Below, piece by piece: positions 1 to 9,000 of a DNA stretch of 64,000 nt; position 1 is the stretch's first letter, and each line of letters begins with the position of its first letter. Under the pieces are notes generated by a model, which worked only from the letters and a program-made list of their open reading frames with translations, had not been told where the DNA came from and ran no database searches. Position numbers and translations under genes: made by a program. This stretch comes from Rhodocytophaga aerolata (lineage in GTDB: Bacteria > Bacteroidota > Bacteroidia > Cytophagales > 172606-1): assembly GCF_030503435.1 (NCBI RefSeq), contig NZ_JAUKPO010000013.1:62001-126000 (forward strand), given 5' to 3'.

Positions 1-921
1 ACGCGTTCCAAAGCCGAAGAAGTAGCCAAGCAGTTTAATGTGCCTTTCGTCTATGACAACCCCGATGAGCTGCTGGAAAAACATGCCCATGAACTGGATT
101 TTATAGATATTATCACGGATGTAGATACGCATGCTCTTTTTACCGGGAAAGGAGCAAAATACGGGGTAAATGTGATCTGCCAGAAACCTATGGGCCCAAA
201 CCTGGAAGTATCCGGAGGGATGGTAGAAACTTGCAGGCGGGCAGGTGTGAAGTTTTACATTCATGAAAACTTCCGGTGGCAGGCACCAATCCGCAAATTA
301 AAAGAAGTGTTGGACTCCAATGTTATAGGCAGGGCATTTAAGGCACGTGTTTCCTTCTGTTCCGCTTTTCCAGTGTTCGAAAATCAGCCATTTCTGGTTG
401 AGCTAGACCAGTTTATCTTAACTGATATAGGTTCACATATTTTAGATATTTGCCGTTTTCTATTTGGCGAGGCTAGCTCCTTGTTCTGCCAGACGAGCCG
501 GATAAATCCAACAATTAAAGGTGAAGATGTAGCTAATGTACTCTTACAAATGCAAAGTGGCCTGAGTTGTTATGCTGAAATGTCTTATGCTTCCATCCTG
601 GAAAAGGAGGCTTTTCCTCAAACCCTGGTTTCTGTGGAAGGAGAGAAGGGCTCAGTAGTTCTAACCCATGATTTTGTTCTCAAAATTACCACCCGCCATG
701 GAACAAGTGTTACGGAAGGCAAACCTATAGTATATCCTTGGGTAGATCCGGCTTATACGGTAGTCCATTCATCTATTGTAGACTGTAACCGCAATATTCT
801 ACAAGATTTACAGGGGATAGGGAAAGCCGAAACAACGGGAGAAGATAACTTTAAAACTGTACAACTGGTTTATGCTGCCTATGAATCGGCTAGGCTTAAC
901 CAGGTAGTATATATTTCATGA
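1..921 (+). CDS. apsD: Gfo/Idh/MocA oxidoreductase, probable D-apiose dehydrogenase (5' truncated)
   Basis: The reading frame is already open at base 1, so the NAD(P)-binding N-terminus with the Rossmann glycine motif lies outside the window; about 306 residues are present. What remains is a Gfo/Idh/MocA dehydrogenase: the CQKP motif holding the catalytic-region lysine, then a C-terminal alpha/beta domain with IHENFRWQ and a DIGSHILD helix. The CQKP plus HENFRWQ pair is what I recall for D-apiose dehydrogenase, which oxidises apiose to apionolactone. It is the first gene of a tight plus-strand set with a sugar ABC importer and an apionate-lactonase-like protein, which supports the substrate. 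Family membership is firm; apiose specificity is inferred. Confidence 0.72.
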   Translation, partial: TRSKAEEVAKQFNVPFVYDNPDELLEKHAHELDFIDIITDVDTHALFTGKGAKYGVNVICQKPMGPNLEVSGGMVETCRRAGVKFYIHENFRWQAPIRKLKEVLDSNVIGRAFKARVSFCSAFPVFENQPFLVELDQFILTDIGSHILDICRFLFGEASSLFCQTSRINPTIKGEDVANVLLQMQSGLSCYAEMSYASILEKEAFPQTLVSVEGEKGSVVLTHDFVLKITTRHGTSVTEGKPIVYPWVDPAYTVVHSSIVDCNRNILQDLQGIGKAETTGEDNFKTVQLVYAAYESARLNQVVYIS

Positions 922-984
922 TTTATAACAACAGATTCGTAACGAACAGCTTAGACTTTTCTAGTTTCCAACTTTTGCAAGTAA

Positions 985-2460
985 ATGATGTATCTGCAAC
1001 TTAAAGGTATCAGCAAATATTTTCCTGGGGTAAAAGCCCTGGAAGATATCCATATGGCGTTGCAGAAAGGAGAAGTTCATGCCATTTGCGGAGAGAATGG
1101 GGCAGGGAAAAGTACGTTAATGAATATCCTAACCGGTAATTTACAGCCAGATGCCGGTGAGTTATTGCTTAACACCCAGAAGATTCACCTCTCAGGCCCA
1201 ATGCAGGCGGCAAAGATGGGTATTGCTATTGTGTATCAGCAATTAAGTCTGGTAGATACGCTTTCAGTGGCTGAAAATATTTTTGCAAACAGTCAGCCGC
1301 GTAACCGCTGGGGCTTTATTCAGTATAGCCAACTCTATGAAAAGACAAACCAGTTACTTAGCAGGCTGGGTCTACATGATCTGCAAGCTCAAACACTCGT
1401 AGTGGATTTATCTCCAGGACAAAAACAAATGGTAGAGATTGCCAAAGCTTTATCTAAGGACCCTACTATTTTAATTTTAGATGAACCAACAGCCTCCATT
1501 ACTGAACGGGAAACTCAAGTTCTATTTACGCTTATCCGGCAGTTGAAACAGGAAGGAAAAACGATTATTTATATTTCTCACCGCATGCAGGAAATCTTTC
1601 AGATCGCCGACCGGGTTACCGTGCTGAAAGATGGAAAATACCAGGGCACTTATCAGACAAGTCAGGTTTCTGTTACGGAATTAATCCGGATGATGGTCGG
1701 AAGAAATGTGGTGGTAGAAAAATATGCGTCATCGGCTACCAGCGAACAAGTGTTGGAAGTAAAAAACCTTTCAGGCAAGCGGTTCCGGAACATTAGTTTT
1801 ACCCTTCATGCAGGAGAAATTCTGGGTCTAGCAGGCTTGGTTGGTGCCGGACGTACGGAAATTGCTCAAACAATATTTGGATATTTGCCCAGAAGTTCGG
1901 GAGAAATACTGGTAAAAGGAAAGCCGCTTACCGTATCACATCCGGAAGAGGCCATTGCCGCAGGTATCGGGTACATCCCTGAAGAGAGAAAATCGCAGGG
2001 CTTATTTCTGGAAAAATCCATAGTTGATAATATTCTTGCTGCCAAGCTGACAACTGCTATCGAACATGGTTGGTATAACCCAGATAAAGCTACAAACCTG
2101 GCGATCATGTATAAAGATAAACTTCGCATTGTTGCACCAGACGTTCATCAGCCCACCGTATATCTCAGTGGAGGTAATCAGCAAAAAGCAGTAATAGCCA
2201 AATGGTTAATGGCAGACCCGGATGTCTTGCTGGTAGACGAACCCACTCATGGAATTGATGTAGGTGCCAAAGCAGAAATATATGCCTTGCTGAGAAAATT
2301 AGCTGAACAAGGAAAAGCCATCCTCCTTATTTCTAGTGAACTTCCTGAAATACTTGGGTTGGCAGACCGGATTTTAGTGATCAGGGAAGGAAAAATCAGT
2401 GGAGAACTTATGGGACAAAAAGCAACCGAAGAGGAAATAATGGCTTTGGCAGCAATTTAA
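985..2460 (+). CDS. Sugar ABC transporter ATP-binding protein, CUT2 (RbsA/MglA) type
   Basis: This is the 491-residue double-domain ATPase of a CUT2 monosaccharide importer and would power uptake through the permease encoded next. The first nucleotide-binding domain has Walker A GENGAGKST (36-44), signature LSPGQKQ (142-148) and Walker B LILDEPTA (163-170). The second has LSGGNQQK (394-401) and DEPT (418-421), but its Walker A position reads GLVGAGRTE (284-292) without lysine. That degeneracy is normal for RbsA-like proteins, where only one site hydrolyses ATP. It lies 63 bp after the dehydrogenase and 32 bp before the permease, consistent with one operon. The neighbours suggest apiose or another branched pentose as substrate. 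Confidence 0.93.
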   Translation: MMYLQLKGISKYFPGVKALEDIHMALQKGEVHAICGENGAGKSTLMNILTGNLQPDAGELLLNTQKIHLSGPMQAAKMGIAIVYQQLSLVDTLSVAENIFANSQPRNRWGFIQYSQLYEKTNQLLSRLGLHDLQAQTLVVDLSPGQKQMVEIAKALSKDPTILILDEPTASITERETQVLFTLIRQLKQEGKTIIYISHRMQEIFQIADRVTVLKDGKYQGTYQTSQVSVTELIRMMVGRNVVVEKYASSATSEQVLEVKNLSGKRFRNISFTLHAGEILGLAGLVGAGRTEIAQTIFGYLPRSSGEILVKGKPLTVSHPEEAIAAGIGYIPEERKSQGLFLEKSIVDNILAAKLTTAIEHGWYNPDKATNLAIMYKDKLRIVAPDVHQPTVYLSGGNQQKAVIAKWLMADPDVLLVDEPTHGIDVGAKAEIYALLRKLAEQGKAILLISSELPEILGLADRILVIREGKISGELMGQKATEEEIMALAAI

Positions 2461-2492
2461 GCCAAACGACAACGTGTGTAAACATACATAGT

Positions 2493-3506
2493 ATGCTAAA
2501 AAAACTGCTTCAAGACCGGGTATATTCTCTGGGAATTACAATAGCCCTCATTTGTTTGGTGGCTTCAATACTCTTTCCTGCCAATTTCCCTACATTCGAA
2601 AATGTAAGCCAGGTGATGCTCAATTTGTCGATAGATACGATTGTGGCGGTAGGCATGATGCTGCTATTGATTAGTGGTGCATTTGATCTCTCCGTAGGCT
2701 CGGTAGTAGCTTTTTCAGGGGGGCTGGCGGCTAATCTGATGTATTTTCACAACCTGCCGGTGCCATTGGCTATTCTGGCAGGATTATCAAGTGCCATTCT
2801 GATCGGGTGGGTAAATGGATACCTTATTGCCTACCAGGGAGTAAATCCAATGATTCAGACACTGGCGATGATGGGGATTGTGCGGGGTGGTGCCTTACTG
2901 GTGGCAGGCGCAGGCATACAAAATCTGCCTTACTGGTACAATGCCATCGGGCAATCCAAATTGCTGGGTATCCAGATGCCGGTCTGGTATATGTTGCTGA
3001 TAGTCGCTATACTCAGTTTTCTAGTCAATAAAACCGTGTTTTTCAGGCGCTATTATTATATCGGAGGAAATGAAAAAGCAGCACATTTGTCTGGTATCCG
3101 GGTTAAACAAATGAAATTGTATGGGTTTATTTTATCGGCTGCCCTGGCAGGAATTGCCGGTATCTTGTTGAGTTCCCGCTTAGGGGCAGCTATGTCTACC
3201 TTGGGTAGAGGAATGGAATTGCGGGTAATTACAGCCGTTATTCTGGGAGGAGCCAGCTTGAGTGGCGGGGTAGGAAAAATTCCGGGAGCCTTGCTTGGTG
3301 CAATGTTTATGGGAATTATAGCCAACATAATGGTTATTGCCAGAGTTTCCGGCTTGTGGCAAGATATTATTTTGGGCATAATACTGATTTTCGCGGTCTG
3401 GCTGGACCTGTTTGTGCAGAAACGCAGCCTGCATCAGAATTTTTTCAGGCCTATCTGGAAAAAAGAAAGTAGTAAAGAGCTGGGTAAAGCTGAACTTGTA
3501 GAATAG
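2493..3506 (+). CDS. Sugar ABC transporter permease, CUT2 (RbsC) type
   Basis: A 337-residue multi-spanning inner-membrane protein of the BPD_transp_2 (RbsC-like) family. It begins with a hydrophobic helix, contains the loop GAFDLSVGSVVAFSGGLAANL typical of ribose-type permeases, and has the late cytoplasmic motif GGASLSGGVGKIPGALLGAMF that contacts the ATPase. A homodimer with the upstream RbsA-like ATPase is expected. Spacing to the upstream gene is 32 bp and to the downstream binding protein 42 bp, as in an operon. Family assignment is secure; the sugar is inferred only from context. Confidence 0.92.
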   Translation: MLKKLLQDRVYSLGITIALICLVASILFPANFPTFENVSQVMLNLSIDTIVAVGMMLLLISGAFDLSVGSVVAFSGGLAANLMYFHNLPVPLAILAGLSSAILIGWVNGYLIAYQGVNPMIQTLAMMGIVRGGALLVAGAGIQNLPYWYNAIGQSKLLGIQMPVWYMLLIVAILSFLVNKTVFFRRYYYIGGNEKAAHLSGIRVKQMKLYGFILSAALAGIAGILLSSRLGAAMSTLGRGMELRVITAVILGGASLSGGVGKIPGALLGAMFMGIIANIMVIARVSGLWQDIILGIILIFAVWLDLFVQKRSLHQNFFRPIWKKESSKELGKAELVE

Positions 3507-3548
3507 ACAGCAGCAATTAATGACTAATTACAAACGACTCCCTTAAAA

Positions 3549-4574
3549 ATGAAACGCCTTTCAACTGTTCTGTATACTACATGCCTGACTGGTCTGCTGG
3601 TTGCCTGTGAACTTCCCCCCAGACAGCATTCTGGTGAAAAACAAACAGCAGACATTATACGCACAAGTGCTAGTACCGAAGTAGACCCTAATGAGGAATA
3701 TGTGATGGTGACTACGGCTATTAATATGCCCATGTATGTAAACCACGATCAGGCAGCATTTAAAAAATGGGGGGCAGCCAGAGGGGTAAAAGTTTCAGTA
3801 TTAGGTCCGGCCGAATGGGATGTGCCAGCGCAGATTGAAACCATTGAACAGGTAATTGCTACCCGTCCGGCAGGCTTGCTGATCAATGGCACAGATCCTG
3901 GAATTACCCAAGCCATCAATAAAGCAGTAGCCGCCGGAATACCTACGGTTGTTTATGATTCGGATATTCCAGGTTCCAGACGGCATGCTTTTCTAGGAAC
4001 CGACTGGTATCAGATTGGGCAAATGCAAGGGGAGGAGATGGTAAAATTGATTGGTGGGAAAGGAAAGATTGCTTATATGGGAATTTTAGGGCTTACCAAT
4101 ATGGAACAAGGCTTTCAGGGTTTACTGGATGTAATAAAAAAATACCCGGAAATAGAGGTAGTTGGCAAGTTCGATGACAAAGCCAATGTAGAAACTGCTG
4201 CCAAATTAACCTCAGACCTGTTAGCTGCCCACCCAGACCTTTCTGGTATTTGTGGCTTCGATTCTAATTCCGGGCCTGGAATGGCTTTGGCTGTAAAAGA
4301 AGCTGGTAAAGCAGGTAAAGTAAAAATCACCACCGTAGATTGGGAACCAGAGCATTTGCAATTAGTTCAGGAAGGTGTCATTCAAATGCTTGCCGGGCAG
4401 AAACGGGAATTATTTACCTGGTATGGTGCCCAGTTCTTATTTGATATGGTGCATAGTACCAATAAACTTTCTGCCAATGATGCCCAGATTGGCATTACCA
4501 ATATTCCCCATACGATCAATACTGGCCTGATAAAAATTACGAAAGAAAATGTAGGCCAATTTCTGAAAAGATAA
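3549..4574 (+). CDS. Sugar-binding lipoprotein of the CUT2 ABC transporter (RbsB type)
   Basis: A periplasmic-binding-protein type I fold protein of 341 residues. The N-terminus is a lipoprotein signal ending in the lipobox LVAC with Cys20, so the receptor is anchored at a membrane rather than free. The mature part shows the ribose-binding family pattern: a substrate pocket segment LLINGTDPGI, then VVYDSDIPGSRRHAFLGTD, then ICGFDSNSGPGMALAVKEAGK. It follows the permease by 42 bp and precedes the lactonase-like gene by 29 bp. It delivers ligand to the RbsA/RbsC pair; apiose is the guess from the flanking enzymes. Confidence 0.9.
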   Translation: MKRLSTVLYTTCLTGLLVACELPPRQHSGEKQTADIIRTSASTEVDPNEEYVMVTTAINMPMYVNHDQAAFKKWGAARGVKVSVLGPAEWDVPAQIETIEQVIATRPAGLLINGTDPGITQAINKAVAAGIPTVVYDSDIPGSRRHAFLGTDWYQIGQMQGEEMVKLIGGKGKIAYMGILGLTNMEQGFQGLLDVIKKYPEIEVVGKFDDKANVETAAKLTSDLLAAHPDLSGICGFDSNSGPGMALAVKEAGKAGKVKITTVDWEPEHLQLVQEGVIQMLAGQKRELFTWYGAQFLFDMVHSTNKLSANDAQIGITNIPHTINTGLIKITKENVGQFLKR

Positions 4575-4603
4575 ATTCTCCTGTTTAACATTCAAACTTC
4601 TCT

Positions 4604-6388
4604 ATGCTCCTTAAAGCAGGACATTTTAGCCTAACCTACGAGAATGGTTTTTTGCGGTATGTGAAATTGGCAGAACATGAAGTTATCCGGATGATCTATT
4701 TTGCCGTCCGGGACCGAGACTGGAATACTATACCAGGTATTATCTCCAATGAGCAAATTTCTCAAACTGAGAATTCTTTTAGCATCCGGTACCAGGTTGA
4801 TGTGAACAAAGAAGAAATACAAATGCAATGGCAGGTGCAAATTACCGGCCTGCCAGATAGTACCATAATCTTTGATCTTCAGGGTGATGTGTTGCATACG
4901 TTCCAGAGAAACAGGCTGGGAATTTGTGTACTGCACCCTGTAGAAGGCGTGGCCGGTGAGCCCTGTATCATTGGTCACCCGGATGGAAGTATTACTCAAT
5001 CGTATTTTACGTCCTATATCAGCCCCTATCAGCCATTTAAAGATATCCGGTTTATGCGATGGACAATGGGTGAGAAGCATACCTTTCAACTGGATTTTGA
5101 AGGGGAAGCATTCGAAACCGAGGACCACCGTAACTGGACAGATGCTTCGTATAAAACCTATTGTACACCTTTGAATTTGCCTTTTCCTGTAGAAGTGCAA
5201 GCCGGTACGCATATTCATCAGCAATGTACTTTACGTTTGCTAAATACAACAAATGAAAATACACCTGCCCAGCCGGATGAAAAAATTGTAATTGAGGTAG
5301 TAAACCAATCTTCTGCGTTCCCAGATATGGGGTTGGGGTTGAACCGGGAAACGGAGGAGCTTAGAGAAAGTGAAATTACCTTTTTGAAAAACCTTTCCCT
5401 CTCTCATCTCAGAGCTGATATTTTTCTCAACAGATCAGGTTGGCAACAAGTATTGCAGCAAGCAATTGATCAGAGTACTAAAATAGCTAGCCCCCTGGAG
5501 GTAGCCTTGTTTTTTGGAGATCATCCTGGCAATGAACTTAGCCAGATGCTTGCATGCCTTACTTCTCAGCAGGCAACAGTCAAGCAGATGCTCGTATTTG
5601 AAGCTGCGACGAGACTAAGCACTACCTCATTACTGAAGCAAGTAGCACCTGCCATCCGGCTGGCTTTACCAGATTGTATGATTGGCGCAGGGACAGATGC
5701 CAATTTTGCAGAGTTGAACCGGCATTCTTTTGAGCATTCGTTAACAGATTTTGTCACTTTTTCAGTTAATCCGCAAGTTCACGCCTTCGATAATTTAACC
5801 TTACTTGAGAATATGCCGGCACAGGCAGATGTTGTCTTGAGTGCCAGGAGACTAGTACCAGATAAACCGGTACATATTTCTCCTGTTACTTTAAAGCCCC
5901 GCTTCAATGCTGTTGCTACAAGTGGGCCTGTTACCTCTATACCACCTGCCGATGCAAGGCAGGCTACTCCATTTGCCGCCGGCTGGCTGCTTGGTAGTTT
6001 AAAATATATCAGTGAGGCAGGGTCATCGGCTATTACCTATTTTGAAACTACCGGCAGCCGGGGAATTTGTTCTGGACAACAGATTTATCCGGCAGGTATA
6101 CTCTTAAACCATATACTTAGTCAGAACCCCGGAAAAGTGATTCTTACCAGATCAAGTAAGCCGTTAAATGTTTCTTCTTTGTTGCTGCAAACGCCAAAAG
6201 GTCAGTTTTTATATCTGGCCAATCATACACAGGAGGAGCAATTCATTCAGCTTGCCAATGGGATTCAAGCAAAAAGTTTAACCAATATCCTGGAAAATAC
6301 ACAGCTTACTCTATCCTTGCCAACTAATAGTTTGATGCTGAAACCTATGAGTATTGTAGCAATAACAGTAGTTTCTGTACTAACCTAA
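4604..6388 (+). CDS. apnL: Probable D-apionate lactonase (ApnL-like)
   Basis: A 594-residue protein without signal peptide. Its N-terminal region, with LRYVKLAEHEVIRMIYFAVRDRDW-type residues around 18-40, looks like the start of the ApnL family as I remember it. The middle (about 240-500) has the alternating pattern of a TIM barrel, and the end is a small beta domain. ApnL hydrolyses apionolactone, the product of apiose dehydrogenase, to D-apionate. It is the last gene of the operon, 29 bp after the binding protein. Its stop overlaps the stop of the convergent DUF5686 gene by 4 nt. The alternative is an uncharacterised glycoside-hydrolase-like protein; the pairing with an ApsD-like gene favours ApnL. 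Confidence 0.62.
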   Translation: MLLKAGHFSLTYENGFLRYVKLAEHEVIRMIYFAVRDRDWNTIPGIISNEQISQTENSFSIRYQVDVNKEEIQMQWQVQITGLPDSTIIFDLQGDVLHTFQRNRLGICVLHPVEGVAGEPCIIGHPDGSITQSYFTSYISPYQPFKDIRFMRWTMGEKHTFQLDFEGEAFETEDHRNWTDASYKTYCTPLNLPFPVEVQAGTHIHQQCTLRLLNTTNENTPAQPDEKIVIEVVNQSSAFPDMGLGLNRETEELRESEITFLKNLSLSHLRADIFLNRSGWQQVLQQAIDQSTKIASPLEVALFFGDHPGNELSQMLACLTSQQATVKQMLVFEAATRLSTTSLLKQVAPAIRLALPDCMIGAGTDANFAELNRHSFEHSLTDFVTFSVNPQVHAFDNLTLLENMPAQADVVLSARRLVPDKPVHISPVTLKPRFNAVATSGPVTSIPPADARQATPFAAGWLLGSLKYISEAGSSAITYFETTGSRGICSGQQIYPAGILLNHILSQNPGKVILTRSSKPLNVSSLLLQTPKGQFLYLANHTQEEQFIQLANGIQAKSLTNILENTQLTLSLPTNSLMLKPMSIVAITVVSVLT

Positions 6389-9000
6389 TCTTCTGAGAAG
6401 TTAATGCCTATACTTGTGGCAATGCCGATTCTAAAGCCATAATCCTGATATTTTCCATTCTGAAAAGAGGCTGCTGCTTCCAGCCGGAAAATCCGCAAGA
6501 TACCATCTATAGAATAGCCAATCTCTGTATAGTTATTAGACGTAGGCGAGGCCAGATAATTCACAAATACATTTTCCCGGATACCAGTCATGCGGATTAT
6601 AGGGAAAGCTGTTACTAAGAATTTCCTGAAGTGATAATGAACATTAGCAGTAAAGTATTTGTCTGAAGTGCTAAACTGGTAATAGTCCAATAAGCGGAAA
6701 CTGCCTACCGGATCTGAAGTAGCAAAAGGTGTGCGGTTTCCAAGGAAATGCTTGAAATCCATGAAATAGAGCTTGTCCTTGTTCAAAAACATGCCCCCTT
6801 GGAAAGCAAAATCTACGGTACCTCGCACACCTACATCAAAGCGATGTTTTATGCCAGCTTCCACCTGGTCGAAGTTTACATCACTGCCAAACACCTGGTT
6901 AAATCCTTTGCGGTAGTCGAGTGTGAAAACAGGGGAGGAGAAGGGAATTTCCTGTTTATTGCCATTCCGTATGCGGTACTTTATCCAAGGGCGGATCACT
7001 AAGCCTGCAGAGCCAATAAACGCTTCATGTTCAGGAAAACTAGTATTGTCTATTTCTTCATTGAAGGGCGCATTGGGTGTATAGTCTTCGATCTTTTTCC
7101 GGTCAATGAGCTTAAAGCTGGAAGTATTAAAGAGTTCACGCCGCTTCATTAATGCCCAGTTGGTATGGAAAGAAATTTTATTGCTAAGCTTTTGCCGGTA
7201 AAGTAGATTTACAAAATCCCGTTCATACAATTTCATGAGGTTTTGCTCCAATAAAAGTGTGGTGAAAGTATTCACCAGCGGCCAGATGGGTTCTTCCTGA
7301 TTGTATTGCTTCACATATCGCCCTCCCTGAAGTTCCAGTCGATAATTTTTGTTATATAATCTGGTAGTTAACAAGCCAGTAAGCTTTTCTCTAGAGAATG
7401 CATACCGCAGGGTAGGGCTTACGGAAAAACGGGTTTTATTGGTATCCTGAATAACGGTACCCAGCGAAAGCCGGTAAATTATGTTGAACCCTTCCACGGT
7501 GTTGAATCCACCCAGCGGAGTGTGAATGCGGAAGTTGCTGTGTTTAGAAATTTTGTAACTATCACCCAGAATAATATCCCAGGGCTGAAAACCTTTGTGC
7601 TTGGACTGTTTCAGGGTGTCGCCTTCTTCTTTTTTCTTTTCAACCACGGCTATACTGTCAGCAATCTGGTAGCCTTTTACTTCTGCTTTGGTTAAGGGCA
7701 CCGGGCGGATAGAGTCCCAATAGGTGTTGTTTTTTTTATAGGCCAGGCTATCTATTTTGTACGTGTTATTTGAAACAACTTCTGGGGCTGACTGCTGTTT
7801 CCGTTCCTGCTTTTCATAGTCTTTCAGCATACCTCTCAGCTCTTTGCGGCTAATTTCTTTCCCTGAGGCCATCCGCTCTTGCAATTGCTGATTTTTCTCT
7901 CCATACTTTTCTTCTATCTCTTTGGCTTGCTCTTTATCTAATTTTTCGTCTACCACTTGCATCTCTTCCACATACAATTCCGGATTCATAGTAATCTGGT
8001 AGTCGCTGATGGTAGCCAGGTAATTATACACAAACTCGAATCCGAAGAATTTTCCCTGAATATCAAACTTATTGGAAATGGGCAGCCAGGCTTTATCTTC
8101 AATGGGGGCGTACAGCATTTTTATGCCAATATTCACCCCCATTTTGGTGGTTTTTACATCCAAACTATGAATGCTCCACCAGTCGTCCACAATATAAATG
8201 ATACCTTCTACCACATTGTCTCCTCTGGAACGGGGAGTAACCTTTATCCGGTTGATCTCAAATTCGCGGTCTTTGAAGGTTCCCATTAACTGAAATCGGT
8301 AATACGCAAAGGCTTTGGGAGATAAGGGAGAAACAGTTTCAGCAACCTCTGGCTGGTAAAAGCTCCCAAAAATAAATGGATTGGGAGAAGTATTGTTGTC
8401 TTTTCCATCGCTGCGGATAGAAATTACTTTTTCATCAAAGGTATTGGGCCTGGTATAGGAAATGTCACTTACCGATTCGGAAATATATACGCGGTCTTTG
8501 GTGATGCCTTCCTTCTCTAGCGTTTTTTTGGCAAGCCAGGGGTAGTCTTTTAACTGGCCGGCACCTTTAATATACACTCTGGCTGAATACCGGTCGATGG
8601 CTTGCGTATGGTATTTGGCTTTGGAAATGGCTTTCCGCATAATGGTATAGGCCGGGTCTTCTTTGCCTGCCCGTACAATTACATCTTTCAGCACTACTAC
8701 CTGCGTTTTTAATTCAATATTCACTTCCGTAAAACCGCTGCCTACTTCTATTTGCTTCACCACACTTTCATAACCCAGATACTGATATACCAACTGGTAG
8801 CTGCCGGCTGGCAATGTTATTTCATAGAGACCGTTTTCATTGGTTGTGGTGCCAGTACCAGTTTGCTTCACAAATATGGTGGCAAAGGCTAATACACTGC
8901 CCTCATCGGATTTAACTGTTCCGCGGATGCCGCCAGCAAATGCAACGAAGGGGAGCCACAACAAACAAACACTAATAAAAGTTGATAGCCTCACATGCAT
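6385..9000 (-). CDS. DUF5686 outer-membrane protein with carboxypeptidase-regulatory-like domain
   Basis: An 871-residue exported protein. A signal peptide covers residues 1-22, ending near AFAGG. Next comes a CarboxypepD_reg-like beta-sandwich (about 24-105), with the usual GTTTNENGLYEI and YQYLGYE patterns. A long DUF5686 region follows, and its C-terminal half has alternating aromatic beta-strands that suggest an outer-membrane barrel. A charged coiled segment with many E, K and Q lies near 355-395. The family is common in Bacteroidota and its function is unknown. The gene stands alone on the minus strand, convergent with the lactonase-like gene by a 4-nt overlap. Confidence 0.85.
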   Translation of the reverse strand: MHVRLSTFISVCLLWLPFVAFAGGIRGTVKSDEGSVLAFATIFVKQTGTGTTTNENGLYEITLPAGSYQLVYQYLGYESVVKQIEVGSGFTEVNIELKTQVVVLKDVIVRAGKEDPAYTIMRKAISKAKYHTQAIDRYSARVYIKGAGQLKDYPWLAKKTLEKEGITKDRVYISESVSDISYTRPNTFDEKVISIRSDGKDNNTSPNPFIFGSFYQPEVAETVSPLSPKAFAYYRFQLMGTFKDREFEINRIKVTPRSRGDNVVEGIIYIVDDWWSIHSLDVKTTKMGVNIGIKMLYAPIEDKAWLPISNKFDIQGKFFGFEFVYNYLATISDYQITMNPELYVEEMQVVDEKLDKEQAKEIEEKYGEKNQQLQERMASGKEISRKELRGMLKDYEKQERKQQSAPEVVSNNTYKIDSLAYKKNNTYWDSIRPVPLTKAEVKGYQIADSIAVVEKKKEEGDTLKQSKHKGFQPWDIILGDSYKISKHSNFRIHTPLGGFNTVEGFNIIYRLSLGTVIQDTNKTRFSVSPTLRYAFSREKLTGLLTTRLYNKNYRLELQGGRYVKQYNQEEPIWPLVNTFTTLLLEQNLMKLYERDFVNLLYRQKLSNKISFHTNWALMKRRELFNTSSFKLIDRKKIEDYTPNAPFNEEIDNTSFPEHEAFIGSAGLVIRPWIKYRIRNGNKQEIPFSSPVFTLDYRKGFNQVFGSDVNFDQVEAGIKHRFDVGVRGTVDFAFQGGMFLNKDKLYFMDFKHFLGNRTPFATSDPVGSFRLLDYYQFSTSDKYFTANVHYHFRKFLVTAFPIIRMTGIRENVFVNYLASPTSNNYTEIGYSIDGILRIFRLEAAASFQNGKYQDYGFRIGIATSIGINFSED

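Follow-up and report, generated by a model that had tools for sequence, protein, structure and literature searches.

Gene content of the locus

The stretch analysed here, hereafter the window, comprises 64,000 nucleotides of the 9.07 Mb genome of Rhodocytophaga aerolata (G000:C44:62001-126000; contig NZ_JAUKPO010000013.1). Its left end carries an operon for which an earlier note, made from the sequence alone, had proposed a role in the uptake and oxidation of D-apiose. As described there, positions 1-6388 hold five tightly spaced plus-strand genes, with intergenic gaps of 63, 32, 42 and 29 bases. The first gene (1..921), with Pfam GFO_IDH_MocA domains, encodes an ApsD-like Gfo/Idh/MocA dehydrogenase. 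One correction to the note concerns its length: the window edge truncates the gene to its 3' part, and the complete gene (342 amino acids, aa; L007:6894-7922) begins 108 bases before position 1. The next three genes encode a double ATPase of the CUT2 type (985..2460, 491 aa; Pfam ABC_tran in two stretches), a CUT2-type permease (2493..3506, 337 aa; BPD_transp_2) and a sugar-binding protein (3549..4574, 341 aa; Peripla_BP_4), whose N-terminus, judged by eye, resembles a lipoprotein signal; these make up the CUT2 sugar importer described in the note. The fifth gene (4604..6388) encodes a 594-aa ApnL-like protein, a candidate D-apionolactone hydrolase, and overlaps at its 3' end by four bases with a convergent gene for an 871-aa protein.

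A second, divergent operon lies on the minus strand just left of the window, across a stretch of 219 bases (window coordinates equal L006 coordinates minus 20000). It encodes a regulator with GntR and Peripla_BP_3 Pfam domains (L006:18660-19673), a 269-aa TIM barrel protein of the AP_endonuc_2 family (L006:17809-18618), which is a candidate OiaC, and a 277-aa PGDH_C protein (L006:16909-17742; PF16896, 223 bits), which is a candidate ApnO, with gaps of 41 and 66 bases between them. The note had no enzymes downstream of apionate in view; candidates for them are found directly to the left of the window, where it had suggested looking. A 255-aa protein (L006:16105-16872, minus strand), encoded 36 bases past the PGDH_C gene, matched neither Pfam nor NCBIfam and had no match in the corresponding stretch of a related genome, G396.

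The dehydrogenase and the specificity of the cluster

The dehydrogenase matched 45 solved sequences with E values of up to 0.001; the best of them, 5uhw (present as five entries), scored 254 bits and the next 69 bits. Over the alignment with 5uhw, which we take to be ApsD of A. radiobacter K84, 125 of 338 columns (37%) are identical, and the motifs CQKP and HENFRWQ pointed out previously are both present and identical in the two proteins. In the opposite direction, the ApsD-like protein of Rhizobium johnstonii matched 17 places in the R. aerolata genome, the operon dehydrogenase scoring 266 bits and the runner-up 60. The comparison with ApsD called for in the note is thus favourable: the enzyme is ApsD-like, and oxidation of D-apiose to D-apionolactone is its predicted reaction.

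The importer gives a different picture. The nearest NCBIfam models of its ATPase and permease, both below cut-off, are the arabinose models AraG and AraH, and the best solved relative of its binding protein is an arabinose-binding protein (6sw4, 157 bits), so that homology leaves the ligand unfixed. These matches, together with the score of the ApnL-like protein below the ApnL cut-off (see below), would suit a cluster for another aldose, arabinose or another pentose, degraded via a dehydrogenase and a lactonase, for which the apiose names would be misleading. Against this stand the far closer relationship of the dehydrogenase to 5uhw than to other solved relatives, the linkage of PGDH_C to OiaX/OiaK in other clusters, the apiosidase-family genes within related clusters and a close relative of a solved apiosidase in the same genome, and we regard the alternative as improbable.

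The ApnL-like protein

The sole NCBIfam match of the 594-aa protein was NF049900, D-apionate lactonase (ApnL), at 303.5 bits (E 2.9e-90) over profile positions 17-593 of 595. The equivalog cut-off of this model is 750 bits, which is passed by the R. johnstonii (1061) and Shinella (818) proteins, whereas four other ApnL-like copies from Bacteroidota (L023, L070, L096 and L131; L070 and L096 scored as match regions) reached 254-316 bits. Apart from the two rhizobial-type proteins, none of the eight copies that were scored attains the curated cut-off, and the R. aerolata protein is 29-30% identical to three rhizobial-type proteins. It is therefore ApnL-like, as the note has it, but not ApnL by the NCBIfam rule. 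No Pfam match was obtained, nor any solved sequence relative beyond one chance-level match.

The predicted structure (mean predicted local distance difference test, pLDDT, 93.4) consists of a TIM barrel between two beta domains, and a Foldseek search returned GH30 enzymes as the best hits, with query template modelling scores of 0.43-0.44. A disguised glycoside hydrolase was rejected, in that no invariant Glu or Asp was found among 50 sequences at the ends of barrel strands 4 and 7, as numbered by eye on the DSSP string and without superposition. Of the 50 sequences, 39 retain Glu481, which lies where the last barrel strand ends; for the most part, the best-conserved residues belong to the N-terminal beta domain or lie near P390-Q391-H393.

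Conservation of the cluster

All eight genes occur in the same divergent layout in G396, with 54-92% identity. In Telluribacter humicola (L070), a Cytophagaceae bin (L089) and Mucilaginibacter SMC90 (L096), seven of them (those for the TIM barrel, PGDH_C, ApsD-like, ATPase, permease, binding and ApnL-like proteins) share a stretch of about 17 kb with an apiosidase-family gene. The matches in these three clusters did not include the GntR-type regulator, and the T. humicola cluster has an AraC-type regulator. Among eight genomes of the family, R. aerolata included, the TIM barrel was found in five (one partial, at a contig end) and PGDH_C in five. The set is partly dispersed or incomplete in two of them: in G395 the TIM barrel, ApsD-like and PGDH_C genes are together, but PGDH_C is divided between two frames and the 19 kb examined yielded no ApnL-like gene, and in G398 the ApnL-like gene adjoins PGDH_C while the TIM barrel gene is not near it. 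Apart from these gaps nothing was found to suggest chance neighbours without a common function, an explanation that is contradicted by the linkage conserved in G396 and the three further Bacteroidota and is exceedingly unlikely. In G397, a further Bacteroidota genome, PGDH_C and its regulator gene lie near a SusD-family gene and not an ABC importer (L132:8351-13883).

Across 395 genomes sampled from the Bacteroidota, an ApnL-like protein was found in three and the PGDH_C candidate for ApnO in two, R. aerolata being in both sets; the other two genomes with an ApnL-like protein had no PGDH_C match. The cluster is thus infrequent in this sample, although the pathway is of a known kind.

A scan of named genomes with a single ApnL-like protein had found no relative, whereas a seven-protein ApnL alignment yielded 583, of which we took the best 80. 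As these were ranked by likeness to the ApnL-like protein of the window, tallies of their neighbourhoods (blastp best match above 60 bits to the query set, over some 10 kb to either side, or as far as short contigs allowed) lean towards its type. PGDH_C was near the ApnL-like gene in 25 of these 80 loci, with the TIM barrel only in 11, OiaX/OiaK only in 10, both in three and neither in one. Among the other 55 loci, the TIM barrel occurred in two, OiaX/OiaK in two and none of the three in 51, from which ApnL-like proteins may have other uses. Within the 25 loci the exclusion of TIM barrel and OiaX/OiaK gave a one-sided Fisher p of 0.0008, a guide only, since the loci share ancestry. On an ApnL tree built by a quick method (88 rows), the label linked or unlinked changed 22 times, compared with a mean of 29.6 after shuffling and with 0-1 of 500 shuffles as low, so that linkage is clustered on the tree but is not confined to one clade.

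ApnL-like proteins occur across many phyla, including Bacteroidota, Chloroflexota, Acidobacteriota, Poribacteria, Planctomycetota and others. An apiosidase-family gene is the neighbour of the ApnL-like gene in Spirosoma genomes and a Fulvivirgaceae genome (L021:7408-10412, L037, L038 and L100), where the rest of the pathway genes are missing from the vicinity. A gene of the Ureide_permease/Sugar_transport type recurs in six related loci (L048:12247-13248 and five others), none of which has a CUT2 permease match, and perhaps encodes an alternative importer.

PGDH_C and the TIM barrel

Judged by cluster context and not by a curated model, ApnO is presumably a PGDH_C protein. That of R. aerolata, the only PGDH_C match in its genome and with 5t57 as its best solved relative, is 45-47% identical to its counterparts in three rhizobial-type clusters, two of which contain an annotated OiaX. 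Together with the adjoining TIM barrel gene, this provides the apionate-processing candidates that had been anticipated left of the window.

An oxidative variant of apiose catabolism employing a xylose-isomerase-family decarboxylase, OiaC, has been described, of which our literature search found no confirmation. The TIM barrel protein of R. aerolata is xylose-isomerase-like and encoded beside the ApnO candidate, in a genome in which OiaK and OiaX were not found. Its gene lies on the same strand as PGDH_C and within 90 bases of it in L050, L070, L072, L085, L089, L093, L096, G396, Pantoea and R. aerolata. Residues E136, D163, H189 and E237, presumably metal ligands, are invariant in 18 sequences. 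On the plasmid pPAT9B04 of Pantoea sp. At-9b, the two genes are 2 bases apart and are adjoined by genes for a triosephosphate isomerase (TPI)-like protein and a DhaK-type kinase, with rpiB nearby, a neighbourhood in keeping with a route by which L-erythrulose would enter central metabolism. In a tree of 25 TIM barrels, the 20 from these loci and the family of R. aerolata, including the unlinked one of G398, were grouped (89/87), the Pantoea row having a very long branch, while four from Alphaproteobacteria, three of them encoded next to split transketolase genes, stood apart (99/95). The TIM barrel protein probably replaces OiaK and OiaX, acting as the decarboxylase of the unphosphorylated substrate (OiaC).

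Alternatively, within an otherwise oxidative apiose pathway, the protein could isomerise apiose, act as an epimerase or cleave its substrate. The nearest solved folds to the model of a relative (L063, pLDDT 93.9) are isomerases and 3-epimerases, so that decarboxylase and isomerase are not distinguished by the model, and TIM relatives on plasmids of Salipiger, Pararhizobium and Paracoccus occur with DhaKL and a split transketolase, with no annotated PGDH_C in the stretch viewed. The three loci combining the TIM barrel with OiaX/OiaK, and the 11 Bacteroidota genomes in which no DhaK-type kinase was found to use L-erythrulose, R. aerolata included, point the same way. This explanation is nevertheless rather unlikely: the TIM barrel keeps close company with PGDH_C in ten loci or genomes, it and OiaX/OiaK largely exclude each other among the 25 PGDH_C loci, and the transketolase-linked TIM barrels form a separate group of the tree.

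Three Alphaproteobacterial plasmids (L028, L031 and L032) carry a related TIM barrel gene with genes for a DhaL-annotated kinase, a split transketolase, a short-chain dehydrogenase/reductase (SDR) and a TRAP importer, which may represent another pathway, acting on a branched sugar or acid.

A candidate operator

The sequence TACAGTAGAGTA is common to the 219-base stretch between the two operons and its counterpart in G396. Repeats of the form AGTA(C/G)AGTAG / TACAGTAGAGTA precede GntR-type regulator genes of R. aerolata, G396 and G397 (L007:6834-6858, left of the window; L023 at about 8305-8323; L132 at about 5580-5601 and 8315-8335); the similar sites of G397 precede two regulator genes, of which one adjoins its PGDH_C gene. 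No site of the TACAGTAGAGTA type was found within the window or in L024, L056, L058, L066, L110 or L127-L131. The motif is a candidate operator.

Apiosidase and kinase genes elsewhere in the genome

Four PF13204 matches above cut-off were found in the R. aerolata genome, all on contigs other than that of the cluster. One of these proteins, encoded on contig C180, aligned over 432 residues with the solved apiosidase 8t9w, scoring 655 bits, and is 66% identical to the copy in the Telluribacter cluster. By contrast, the genome had no match to RuBisCO_large (PF00016) or to SBD_N (PF07005, OiaK), and an OiaK/RuBisCO-like branch encoded elsewhere in it was accordingly rejected. A DhaK-type kinase (Dak1), expected for the use of L-erythrulose, was likewise not found in R. 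aerolata or in any of ten other Bacteroidota with cluster genes, whereas it was present on the one Pantoea plasmid searched; in this sample G396 is 75% complete, G397 has 7% contamination, and G402-G407 come without completeness values. Sugar kinases were considered as a replacement. Among four FGGY_N matches in R. aerolata, one is most like E. coli AplK (39%), but its gene lies beside an apparent glpD (by eye), and it therefore looks like a glycerol kinase.

Proposed pathway

Taken together, the scores of the dehydrogenase against 5uhw, the single NCBIfam match of the ApnL-like protein and the PGDH_C and TIM barrel genes next to the window support the apiose interpretation put forward in the note, and we propose, at a probability of roughly 0.8, that the two divergent operons constitute a cluster for oxidative D-apiose catabolism. 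The cluster very probably imports apiose and oxidises it stepwise. A secreted apiosidase, encoded elsewhere in the genome, would free D-apiose, which the CUT2 importer would take into the cytoplasm. There the ApsD-like enzyme would convert it to D-apionolactone, and the ApnL-like protein would hydrolyse the lactone to D-apionate. The PGDH_C enzyme, as an ApnO, would oxidise and rearrange D-apionate to 3-oxo-isoapionate, and the metal-dependent TIM barrel, as an OiaC, would probably decarboxylate this to L-erythrulose. Both operons would be controlled by the regulator, in which a GntR DNA-binding part is joined to a LacI-like part that would sense a sugar as inducer. We hold the assignment of the ApnO step to the PGDH_C enzyme to be highly likely, and the steps from apiose to apionate with a shade more confidence still. 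The analysis itself shows which genes are there, their homologies, the linkage kept in relatives and the negative search for the RuBisCO-like branch; the individual catalytic reactions, what the importer binds, the inducer and what becomes of L-erythrulose are inferences.

Several findings weigh against this proposal. The ApnL-like proteins of this and four other Bacteroidota loci fall short of the curated cut-off, and similar proteins are frequent outside such clusters. The importer appears arabinose-like and is not close to the rhizobial one. The sets in G395 and G398 are broken or scattered, and three PGDH_C loci have both the TIM barrel and OiaX/OiaK. Finally, with no Dak1 in R. aerolata and the ten other Bacteroidota, the last step of the route is left without a candidate. 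On account of that absence from 11 genomes, the oxidative apiose pathway of Bacteroidota possibly ends in an undescribed way, with the TIM barrel acting on unphosphorylated 3-oxo-isoapionate and its product bypassing a DhaK-type L-erythrulose kinase, a suggestion that we make tentatively. Either an unrelated kinase would then take over, or the TIM barrel would cleave its substrate differently, yielding for instance glycolate and glycerate, as a phosphate-free parallel to the RuBisCO-like hydrolase.

Bacteroidota rank among the main degraders of plant polysaccharides. The oxidative apiose route was seldom seen in this phylum, judging by the three ApnL-like proteins and two ApnO candidates in the 395 genomes, and no description of it in this phylum was recognised in the literature at the level of titles and abstract openings. 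What is new here is a member of the cluster in a lineage where it is infrequent; the kind of pathway is already known from other bacteria. With an apiosidase of the solved type encoded elsewhere in the genome, the cluster provides the outline of a route from glycoside to four-carbon product and points to one concrete question, the fate of the product of the TIM barrel. According to PMC11747546, apiose occurs in pectic rhamnogalacturonan II, where it participates in the borate cross-link, as well as in numerous plant glycosides; the discussion in PMC13001218 ascribes to Carter et al. the report of apiose degradation by Bacteroides and Clostridia.

Comparison with known apiose systems

Plasmid pRL12 of R. 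johnstonii and a plasmid of Shinella each carry, in a single cluster, an annotated OiaX, a four-carbon acid sugar kinase, PGDH_C, an importer, an ApsD-like enzyme and ApnL. An oxidative D-apiose pathway with the RuBisCO-like OiaX was reportedly described by Carter and colleagues in 2018. The R. aerolata cluster shares with these the ApsD-like, ApnL-like and PGDH_C proteins and a CUT2 importer, but has a TIM barrel gene beside PGDH_C in a genome lacking RuBisCO_large and SBD_N matches. It also differs from the R. johnstonii cluster in its importer, which has a single permease gene and lacks a DUF2291 gene among its parts, and in its regulator, a GntR/LacI-like hybrid in place of the annotated NanR. 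According to a passage in PMC11747546, a strain with clustered genes for apionolactonase, apiose dehydrogenase, apionate oxidoisomerase, OiaK and OiaX grows on D-apiose.

Closest to the OiaC variant is pPAT9B04 of Pantoea sp. At-9b, where, as in R. aerolata, the TIM barrel gene is directly beside PGDH_C. The two TIM barrels are 29% identical, and the Pantoea genes are adjoined by those for a DhaK-type kinase and a TPI-like protein, whereas R. aerolata has no Dak1 match. The non-oxidative cluster of E. coli SE15, for which PMC13001218 shows growth on apiose, resembles that of R. aerolata in importing apiose through a CUT2 system. It employs an FGGY kinase, a split transketolase and two SDR oxidoreductases, in contrast to the Gfo/Idh dehydrogenase, putative lactonase and PGDH_C protein of R. 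aerolata.

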